From NCBI GenBank assembly GCA_031279915.1, contig JAITHO010000225.1, positions 1-11,755 of the forward strand: DNA of 11,755 nucleotides. Direction: 5' to 3'. The notes beneath the pieces were generated by a model. The model was not told the DNA's origin, did not search any database, and saw nothing but the letters and a program-made list of their open reading frames with translations. Positions 1 through 7,398 of this stretch are shown in pieces; positions within the stretch are counted from its first letter, which is position 1; each line of letters starts with the position of its first letter. The DNA is from Tannerellaceae bacterium. GTDB lineage: Bacteria; Bacteroidota; Bacteroidia; Bacteroidales; Tannerellaceae. The position numbers were made by a program, and so were the translations under genes.

Positions 1-194
1 AGTGAAACCCCCACCACAACATACCGGCAAATCCCACGCCGAGTGAAACCCCCACCACAACATATACCCAAATCCCACGCCGAGTGAAACCTCCAAAACG
101 TTTTTCCGGCAAATCCCACGGCGAGTGAAACCTCCAAAACGTTTTTCCGGCAAATCCCACGCCATGTGAAACCTCCAAAACGTTTTTTTTTCCA

Positions 195-253
195 ATCCCA
201 CGGCGAGGGAAAACGCCACCACAATGTTTTGGAGCTTTCCCTCGCCGTGGGAT
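195..253. repeat. Perfect 18-bp inverted repeat where the array flips
   Basis: The arm at 195-212 (ATCCCACGGCGAGGGAAA) is exactly complementary to 236-253, with 23 nt between them. The arms contain two neighbouring A motifs in opposite orientation, and the intervening stretch holds a degraded B motif around 224. A long hairpin could form in DNA or in RNA from either strand. It marks the point where the direct repeats on the left give way to inverted arrangement. It lacks a clean downstream T-run, so I do not call it a terminator. Confidence 0.85.
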
Positions 254-404
254 CTATACATTTTTCCCACTTTTCGGGTTCCAGAGCCGTGAGAGCCCCC
301 CAAAACAAAGTTTTGGAGCCCTCCCACGCCGAGGGAGCCGACAATTTTGCCCGATTCTTTGAATATCTCAGCGTGGGACAGGGGTAAAATAAAGTTTTGG
401 CCCA

Positions 405-463
405 ATCCCACGCCGAGGGATTCCCAACTTTTTTTGTTTTGGAGGTTTCCCACGCCGTGGGAT
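405..463. repeat. Imperfect inverted repeat inside the array
   Basis: The arms 405-422 and 446-463 match in 14 of 18 positions as an inverted repeat. The right arm ends in a fully symmetric A motif (449-462 region) and the loop holds a B-type dyad: CCCAAC at 423-428 against GTTTTGG at 436-442. It repeats the architecture of the 195-253 element about five units further along. Confidence 0.7.
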
Positions 464-489
464 CCGGCAGAAATGTTGATTTAGACTTT

Positions 490-541
490 CCCACGCCGAG
501 GATTTTGAAAGAAAAAAAGTAACGGAAATCCTCCGCGTGGG
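490..541. repeat. 16-bp inverted repeat at the right end of the array
   Basis: CCCACGCCGAGGATTT at 490-505 pairs with 526-541 in 15 of 16 positions; the 20-nt loop is purine-rich. It is the last recognisable pair of A motifs before the array fades, and it lies about 130 nt beyond the end of the minus-strand operon. It could therefore be part of that operon's 3' untranslated region. Confidence 0.75.
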
Positions 542-591
542 ATTTGAAGGGAAAAAATAAGGTCGTTTGGCTTGCTAAAACTGTTGCGAAA

Positions 592-672: not shown

Positions 673-1419
673 TTACTTCATCAACTTGCGTTGGCGCACA
701 ACTTCGTACATCAAAACCGAGGCGGCAACCGATACATTGAGCGACTGGATGCTGCCGTATACCGGAATCCTGACCCGACGGTCGGCCATGCGGAGGTGGG
801 CCGCCGCAATGCCCTCGTCTTCCGATCCCAGGAGGAGGGCAACGGGCGAATGACCCAGATCGAGGCTGGTATGCAGCTCAGAAGCGCCCTCCGATGCGGC
901 AACCACCATCACCCCATGGTCGTGAAGCATGCGAATAGCCTCGGCGATGCCTGCCTCCCGACATACAGGCAACGAAAGCAATGCGCCGGCCGAGGTTTTC
1001 ACCGCGTCGGCGCTAATGGCAGCGCTTCCTCGAGCAGGGATAACCAGAGCGTCGACGCCGGCGCACTCGCAACTGCGGGCTATCGCGCCGAAGTTTCGCA
1101 CGTCGGTAACTCCGTCGAGCATAACAACGAAGGGGCTGCGGCCCTCTTCATATACAAATGGCAAAATATCCTCCAGGCGTTGGTACGGAACAACTTGGAG
1201 GTAGGCAATCACTCCCTGGTGATTCTTCGAAGTGATGCGATTGAGGCGTTCAACGGGCACGCGCCTCACTACAATGTTCCTGTCCTGCACGGCCGCCAGC
1301 AGTTCCTTGGCCAAATCGCTTTGGAGTTCGCGGCGGATGTAGATGGTATCAATCTCGCGGTCGCTTCGGATGGCTTCCATCACGGCGTGGAGGCCGAAAA
1401 TCATGCTGCTGTCTTTCAT
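673..1419 (-). CDS. rlmB: TrmH/RlmB-family 23S rRNA 2'-O-ribose methyltransferase
   Basis: This 248-residue SpoU/TrmH (SPOUT) enzyme is predicted to transfer a methyl group from S-adenosylmethionine to a ribose 2'-OH, most likely of the RlmB-type guanosine in the 23S rRNA peptidyl-transferase region. The N-terminal ~75 residues match the RlmB substrate-binding domain (FGLHAVMEAI near 8-17, NHQGVIA 66-72). The catalytic half shows all three SPOUT motifs: N109..G111..R115 in NFGAIAR, the cofactor loop LLGSEDEGI (196-204, E200), and SLNVSVA (226-232, N228), part of the trefoil knot. Length is normal for the family. Its ATG overlaps the recN stop as ATGA, implying translational coupling, and it is the last gene of the minus-strand operon. 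RlmB is preferred over tRNA-specific TrmH because of the N-terminal domain, but the exact target nucleotide is inferred. Confidence 0.9.
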   Translation of the reverse strand: MKDSSMIFGLHAVMEAIRSDREIDTIYIRRELQSDLAKELLAAVQDRNIVVRRVPVERLNRITSKNHQGVIAYLQVVPYQRLEDILPFVYEEGRSPFVVMLDGVTDVRNFGAIARSCECAGVDALVIPARGSAAISADAVKTSAGALLSLPVCREAGIAEAIRMLHDHGVMVVAASEGASELHTSLDLGHSPVALLLGSEDEGIAAAHLRMADRRVRIPVYGSIQSLNVSVAASVLMYEVVRQRKLMK

Positions 1420-7257: not shown

Positions 7258-7329
7258 AGAAATAAATTAAATCTTCTATACTACGAGGGCCTCTTTGCGA
7301 TTCTTTTTTCTCTACAAAACGATATCTGC

Positions 7330-7398
7330 CGTTTGGGGGATCGCCACACGACCGTTTGGGGGATCGCCACACGACCGTGTGGGGGATCGCCAAATGAA
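7330..7398. repeat. 23-bp tandem repeat, three copies, built of inverted arms
   Basis: Units 7330-7352 and 7353-7375 are identical; 7376-7398 matches them in 19 of 23 positions. Each unit is arm CGTTTGG, 7-nt spacer GGGATCG, arm CCACACG, and AC. The arms are complementary within a unit (one mismatch) and across unit junctions; at 7367-7382 the junction is a perfect CCACACG-AC-CGTGTGG. It stands about 90-155 bp upstream of the predicted dnaN start point and about 200-265 bp upstream of the glycogen start point, so it could serve either promoter as a multi-site operator, or be a small expandable repeat. Confidence 0.85.

Follow-up and report, generated by a model that had tools for sequence, protein, structure and literature searches.

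What is the long periodic DNA array at the start of this contig, and to what kind of element does it belong? The window, the whole 11,755-nt stretch of DNA analysed here, opens contig C158 of a draft Tannerellaceae genome (G000; 2.09 Mb, 60.75% complete). The array lies at its very beginning, 3' of a SpoU-family methyltransferase gene, and because it begins at the contig end its left boundary is not visible. The original prediction described two palindromes, A and B, alternating every half unit, and proposed either a phased binding array for dimeric proteins or a chain of hairpins. The features are as follows (no strand unless given).

1-545: phased repeat array with 13 A-like sites, one of nine dispersed copies; the contig end cuts its left end
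1-212: younger part, about five 41-bp units with 83-85% matches (TRF rows 1-181 and 24-212)
196-462: older part, with A centres at 203, 245, 287, 329, 371, 413 and 455, exactly 42 bp apart
32-46: A site, centre 39
73-87: A site, centre 80
114-128: A site, centre 121
155-169: A site, centre 162
196-210: A site, centre 203
238-252: A site, centre 245
280-294: degenerate A site, centre 287, 4 mismatches
322-336: A site, centre 329
364-378: degenerate A site, centre 371, 5 mismatches
406-420: A site, centre 413
448-462: A site, centre 455, a perfect palindrome except for the middle base
489-503: A site, centre 496
528-542: degenerate A site, centre 535, 5 mismatches
93-106: B motif CCAAAACGTTTTTC, centre 99.5
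134-147: B motif, centre 140.5
175-188: B motif, centre 181.5
219-232: B motif, centre 225.5, 2 mismatches
299-317: B motif CCCAAAACAAAGTTTTGGA, centre about 308
195-253: long inverted repeat A-B-A, 85% identical to its own reverse complement (BLAST self-match, C158)
673-1419, reverse strand: neighbouring gene for a SpoU-family 2'-O rRNA methyltransferase of the RlmB type (PF00588, PF08032)

When any site with at most five mismatches to TCCCACGCCGTGGGA is taken as A-like, the 12 steps between the 13 sites are four of 41 bp, six of 42 bp, one of 41 bp and one of 39 bp, and the spacing is exactly 41 bp from 39 to 203 and exactly 42 bp from 203 to 455. The predicted recurrence of A at regular steps (39-42 bp) therefore stands, and "at least 13 steps" becomes 12, since 13 sites make 12 steps. 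Autocorrelation over 1-545 gives z values of 11.7, 10.5 and 7.0 at lags 41, 82 and 123, the mean best z in 300 dinucleotide shuffles being 2.7. The periodic signal persists past the first five near-identical units, because positions 206-545 by themselves still score 8.8 (lag 84), 5.9 (lag 42) and 5.2 (lag 168); the periodicity is real, far above shuffled sequence. Identity at lag 41 is 0.84 within 1-205, and the units of this part look like a recent tandem duplication.

The palindromic character of the array is less striking than its spacing. Dyads with at least six of eight pairs number 10 in the window against 5.1 in shuffles, and 10 of 200 shuffles reach this value; since the enrichment is modest, the strong result is the spacing and not the quality of the arms. 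The B centres predicted at 99.5, 140.5, 181.5 and about 308 were recovered and a further one lies at 225.5, but that placed near 392 is weak (four mismatches) and that near 433 is unmatched within the limits set. Both kinds of dyad are present, but their alternation at half a unit is partly automatic, because tandem repetition of a palindromic unit by itself creates another dyad midway between successive units.

Copies of the array were found by BLAST elsewhere in the same genome, on contigs C168, C106, C130, C23, C15, C64 and C2, with identities from 82 to 67%, and a ninth copy, on C70, was found with C2 as query (84% identical to C2). A search of 99 other related genomes, with limited scoring, gave no match. 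Gaps are few in the alignment of the nine copies, apart from contig ends and about one unit missing in three of them. No reading frame is open across all nine; several of the arrays coincide in part with heuristic ORFs (94-312 aa), of which that of 312 aa has no Pfam match.

In the older part of the array (196-462) the linkers are homologous from copy to copy and unrelated from unit to unit. Over the family, linker similarity is 0.706 between equivalent units of different copies and 0.400 between different units, equally within one copy and between copies. A-core similarity is 0.657 within a copy, 0.577 between unlike units of different copies and 0.664 for the same unit across copies. When copy labels are shuffled within units, the excess similarity of cores within a locus (+0.080) is reached in 0 of 2000 permutations and that of linkers (+0.0005) in 1392 of 2000; with units 203-455 alone, the numbers are 0 of 2000 and 300 of 2000. 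The concerted excess falls mainly on bases 2-6 from the A dyad in both arms, peaking at 3-4 bp (z of 13-14 in the left arm and 9.4-11.8 in the right, in 3-bp windows), and it is at this peak that the copies diverge most (identity 0.49-0.65). Since cores are alike within a copy and linkers are alike across copies, the core must evolve quickly, its units shifting together in each copy, on a frame that stays the same. A is the private, quickly changing part of the array. B (AAAAC/GTTTT) is present repeatedly in the nine copies, and A-tracts across the class, with dinucleotides controlled, show no enrichment (52 vs 48.4 of 101).

Are these sites of DNA recognition or RNA hairpins? At bases 3-4, arm complementarity is 0.559 within one unit, 0.570 between different units of the same copy and 0.41 across copies; because arms of the same unit pair no better than arms of other units, the half-sites fit a copy-wide motif independently, in the manner of half-sites bound by protein. 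All seven pairs of 93 units in the window family contain 59 G.T and 50 A.C mismatches, and the 69 DUF6261-linked arrays described below contain 289 and 337, respectively. Independent half-site matches and the absence of a G.U preference suggest DNA recognition rather than RNA hairpins. The predicted chain of hairpins is therefore unsupported, with neither a clear G.T excess nor a gain in complementarity within units, and an Rfam scan of the window gave no match. Dyad pairs exceed those of dinucleotide shuffles in three sets of arrays (6.30 vs 5.11, 5.79 vs 5.02 and 6.17 vs 4.81), the enrichment being individually significant in 14/69, 2/24 and 6/18 arrays.

A pattern search for arrays led to 42-bp arrays adjoining genes of the family DUF6261 (PF19775). 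This family occurs in 21 of 40 related genomes, including that of the window with 33 matches and a congener with up to 44, and in 33 of 294 genomes sampled across the order, again with the window's own included; each of the 39 DUF6261 loci found among named records comes from a Tannerellaceae MAG, probably of termite-gut origin to judge by the sample codes. An array of 40-43 bp lies on one side of the gene at 69 of 86 loci. The 17 loci with no detected array, some of them truncated, include a clade from several congeners (L086, L090, L091 and L095), perhaps an ancestral form or one with a different function. Among 105 upstream regions (24 of them order-wide loci; five loci with less than 250 bp upstream, three array-less order-wide loci and a truncated one were excluded), 82 show a strong lag, and the best lag is 40-43 in 80 of these (lags 12-75 tested). 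Upstream arrays are found at 23 of 28 order-wide loci (16 families, the window's own among them), always with a best lag of 41, 42 or 43 (lags 18-69), and a 24th locus has its array downstream. On two long contigs of a congeneric genome (G009), all eight DUF6261 genes adjoin an array. The downstream position characterises one subfamily (L135, L137, L138, L140, L153, L078, L085, L097 and L098), most of whose proteins start with MKV.

The sequence TTTG-N18..21-TAnnTTTG, which we take to be the Bacteroidales promoter consensus, occurs exactly in the array-to-ATG interval at 12 of 83 loci (0.12 expected) and on the upstream side of the array at one of 83 (0.14 expected), so that the promoter, where found, lies mostly between array and gene. 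With one mismatch allowed, the corresponding counts are 28/83 (3.1 expected) and 11/83 (3.2 expected), the latter also an excess.

The period is common to arrays of unrelated sequence. Two Bacteroidales genomes rich in DUF6261 were sampled, G009 (same genus as the window) and G244 (another family); of the 55 noncoding arrays in the stretches taken, 51 have a period of 21-23 or 41-43 bp, equal to two or four turns of the helix. The fundamental TRF periods on the two G009 contigs (357 kb) are 21-23 bp (12 arrays), 41-43 bp (20) and 63 bp (1), with no others. Once open-frame arrays are set apart, 29 of 29 fall into the 21-23 or 41-43 bins, in a sample not wholly unbiased because the contigs were known from a DUF6261 listing, C70 being rich in DUF6261. 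In G244, where 360 kb were sampled as 18 stretches at even spacing, the period is 21 or 41-42 bp for 22 of 26 noncoding arrays. The phased binding array of the original prediction is supported by this quantisation of unrelated arrays at about 21 and 42 bp, by a half-site core that alters in concert in each array and by the enrichment of dyads in the class; as a whole, that interpretation is partly supported.

Array density was compared in eight genomes, counting arrays in the 20-23 or 40-46 bp bins. It is 6.1 per 100 kb in G244 (at least 12 DUF6261 genes) and 8.1 in G009 (40 genes), 1.0 in G007 (nine genes), 0 and 1.0 in G019 and G061 (one gene each), and 2.0, 1.9 and 0 in the DUF6261-free genomes G020, G021 and G074. 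Array abundance tracks DUF6261 number only at the upper end, with no smooth rise. Moreover, G020 and G021, which belong to the same family and have no DUF6261 match, contain three noncoding arrays each, with periods of 22, 23, 40 or 44 bp; since all six fall into the pitch bins, the pitch itself needs no DUF6261. A weak motif, AGCTTGC/GCAAGCT, is common to 10 of 83 DUF6261 modules against 0.7 expected (one of the 83, L240, is array-less). Together, these observations point to a class of helically phased arrays, each of private sequence, that is found widely across Bacteroidales and has a link to DUF6261; the array in the window would be a solo member of it. A description of such an array class was not found in the open-access literature searched.

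Solo arrays can be compared with the modules of their own genome. The two G009 contigs hold 18 further arrays analysed as solo, two others having been dropped (one because it lies in an ORF and has a period of 54 bp, the other because it adjoins a contig end). Eight of the 18 match one of the 27 same-genome modules at a score of at least 11, against 0/18 with 27 modules of G000, 2/18 with 15 modules of other genomes and 0.4 in shuffles; one of the eight (C31:133852) lies inside a 383-aa open frame. A solo array of 23-bp period in G009 and module L150 have only the core CACAACGTTGT in common. The nearest own module of the window family is L107 (TTCCAACGGCGTTGGAA; 15/15 and 18/22 bases), and no module is assignable, the family giving 29 pairs at a score of at least 10 with its own modules against 33 control pairs, which is no excess.

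The DUF6261 protein is predicted to be all-helical (AF2 model, pLDDT 96), and a Foldseek search with this model gave no significant match. Its charge is near neutral to slightly acidic, with a median pI of 6.5 and a net charge of -1.5. Pfam returned DUF6261 alone for two proteins, NCBIfam no family over cut-off for four, and padloc no toxin for five, with one single weak match (E 0.019). The arrays turn over faster than the protein sequence: for several pairs of proteins 65-70% identical the arrays are alike at 13-14 of 20 positions, against 12.2 for distant pairs, and those of one pair at 56% identity are still alike at 18 of 20. A proline-rich 45-bp coding repeat is found near the C-terminus of DUF6261 proteins L116, L315, L317 and L323 of the window's own genome.

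What, then, is the array of the window? Positions 1-545 may be best regarded as a solo array, gene-less as far as the contig shows, within a class of phased DNA site arrays, a reading that falls slightly short of being probable. Half-sites, often forming dyads, stand about two or four turns apart, which would place them on one side of the helix, and the core is private to each array. Such arrays could serve a sequence-specific dimeric protein as DNA platforms with many sites, on which it would assemble cooperatively along one face. The DUF6261 protein encoded beside a module array would be the prime candidate for the binder, unless it only partners the protein that binds; it might regulate its own promoter from the adjoining array, and on solo arrays such as that of the window it might act in trans. 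It is from adjacency, co-abundance and satellite matching that we infer possible binding of the arrays by DUF6261. That DUF6261 is a large, fast-diversifying family, each member of which, by itself or within a complex, reads a private core at fixed pitch rather than a fixed motif, in its own and in satellite arrays, the window being one such satellite, is conceivable but somewhat doubtful. If true, each cell would contain dozens of orthogonal, self-addressed chromosomal site arrays, perhaps of use in chromosome organisation, silencing or self/non-self marking. Nine copies with common linkers but differing cores stand against a single trans-acting protein. Further observations weigh against the preferred reading: the pitch in genomes free of DUF6261 and the uneven rise of array density with gene number, the slight acidity of the protein and its lack of a significant Foldseek match, arrays little alike beside similar proteins, loci with a downstream array or none, the excess of promoter-like sites upstream of arrays at one mismatch, a matching solo array inside an open frame and the lack of an assignable module for the window family.

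Known systems come closest in BrickBuilt, parS_F and REP/RAYT; as far as they were compared, the arrays fit the full definition of none of them. In geometry they are nearest to parS_F, while their habit recalls BrickBuilt and the pairing of a gene with satellites recalls REP/RAYT. In REPIN/RAYT systems, a gene with its palindromes is accompanied by more numerous dispersed, gene-less copies of these palindromes. The present arrays share with the outline of these systems the combination of a gene with gene-less satellites, and differ in being phased instead of single or paired palindromes. The Y1 (HUH) transposase of RAYT type (PF01797) has no match in G000 (60.75% complete) or G009 (88%), and seven in G244. 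In contrast to CRISPR spacers, the linkers of the window family are homologous unit by unit among the nine copies. Another system of similar form is that of plasmid iterons (PMC4980987). Iterons are direct repeats about two turns long, with a group-specific sequence; the present arrays are like them in these respects and differ in being dispersed over many contigs. As described in PMC6238139 and PMC9178275, the centromere of plasmid F, parS_F (sopC), is made up of 43-bp tandem repeats, twelve in all, which contain 16-bp inverted repeats recognised by a dimeric protein. Its geometry, as given there, is nearly that of the window, where repeats of about this length likewise carry inverted repeats; but parS_F is a single plasmid site downstream of sopAB, whereas the present arrays are many and chromosomal and have differing cores. 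Pfam revealed no ParA or ParB among eight window proteins, the left side of the array lying beyond the contig, nor among the eight proteins scanned from the flanks of seven further array loci.

The arrays might instead owe their uniformity to mutation. Mutational homogenisation, by short-tract conversion or template switching among A cores, would require no protein in trans, and the pitch would come from the way in which repeats are generated; we consider this rather unlikely. The six arrays that show the pitch in the DUF6261-free genomes G020 and G021 add to its weight, and lessen that of phased binding sites and of an array-reading family. It agrees with concerted change limited to cores that are private even in solo copies with common linkers, with the freshly duplicated look of the first window units and with the SNPs of BrickBuilt, which recur at intervals and are localised around a 2-4 nt site according to PMC4596501. 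Conversion alone, however, does not account for the fact that arrays of unrelated sequence in two families keep to two or four turns, nor for the DUF6261 link and the pairing of solo arrays with modules, and no correction between the arms of a unit is seen (0.559 vs 0.570).

A less probable alternative is that the arrays are mobile minisatellites of the BrickBuilt or MITE kind, moved by a transposase in trans, with DUF6261 as cargo or helper. The nine dispersed copies, 67-84% identical, and the resemblance of some solo arrays to particular modules suit such an origin, and BrickBuilt itself is a dispersed, intergenic 23-nt array from the same order. As defined in PMC4596501, BrickBuilt consists of dispersed intergenic 23-nt tandem repeats of Porphyromonas gingivalis with predicted stem-loops and dyad symmetry, without BLASTn matches outside the species, and forms one sequence family with a leader, a tail, terminal inverted repeats and target-site duplication. 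It is like the window class in being a dispersed Bacteroidales repeat of about two turns with base changes recurring at intervals, and is set apart from it by the many unrelated sequences of the class, a main period of 41-43 bp and the DUF6261 genes beside many arrays; the period of the window is 41-42 bp, not 23. PF01797, the sole transposase family searched, is unmatched in G000 and G009 as given above, and mobility leaves the pitch and the concerted cores unexplained.

It is very improbable that the arrays belong to a repeat-RNA system like type III toxin-antitoxin loci, in which upstream repeats encode a protein-binding RNA. ToxIN and CptIN, as presented in PMC4627078, are likewise preceded immediately by private, locus-specific tandem repeats, whose length (36-45 nt) is similar. 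The present loci differ from them in the position of exact promoter matches between array and gene (12/83, against 1/83 upstream of the array), in the lack of an RNA-stem signature such as a G.U preference or an Rfam match of the window, in the downstream array of one subfamily and in the abundance of solo arrays; no ToxN, CptN or TenpN toxin family was matched by the DUF6261 proteins scanned with Pfam (two), NCBIfam (four) or padloc (five, with the one weak match at E 0.019). Equally remote is functionless tandem duplication with a chance DUF6261 link, which would suit the near-identical units of 1-205 and the copies lacking one or more units but not the two period bins that take 29/29 (G009 sample) and 22/26 (G244) noncoding arrays, the arrays at 8/8 genes of the G009 contigs and 23/28 order loci, or densities of 2.0, 1.9 and 0 per 100 kb in DUF6261-free genomes against 6.1 and 8.1.

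A fixed pitch without a fixed sequence is unusual in an array, and what selection seems to maintain here is the geometry and the likeness of units to one another instead of a particular motif. Since the arrays are dense in two DUF6261-rich genomes (6.1 and 8.1 per 100 kb), an influence on chromosome structure or on expression is conceivable. The arrays beside DUF6261, pointing to an undescribed gene-and-site system, offer a first experimental handle on this uncharacterised Pfam family. They also provide protein-DNA pairs, possibly orthogonal and of natural origin, with which to study how recognition specificity diverges.

Some minor observations concern individual loci. At L094 (G017:C30), several neighbouring arrays with different units, of periods about 40-42, flank one DUF6261 gene on either side (10-775 and 2127-2707). 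A terminator-like inverted repeat, AGCCTTCCG...CGGAGGGCT, is located near the array at L059 (C8), L060 (C26) and L061 (C24), and is thus common to two DUF6261 modules and one array with no DUF6261 in the fetched stretch. DUF6261 genes are cut by contig ends at G000:C50, C159, L121, L129 and L263, and the contig of the window also begins inside an array; possibly the arrays break assembly. Finally, the window contains a second array of the two-turn class, a 23-bp tandem repeat at 7329-7392 (2.8 copies, 97% matches), between a DNA polymerase III beta gene and a glycogen synthase gene.
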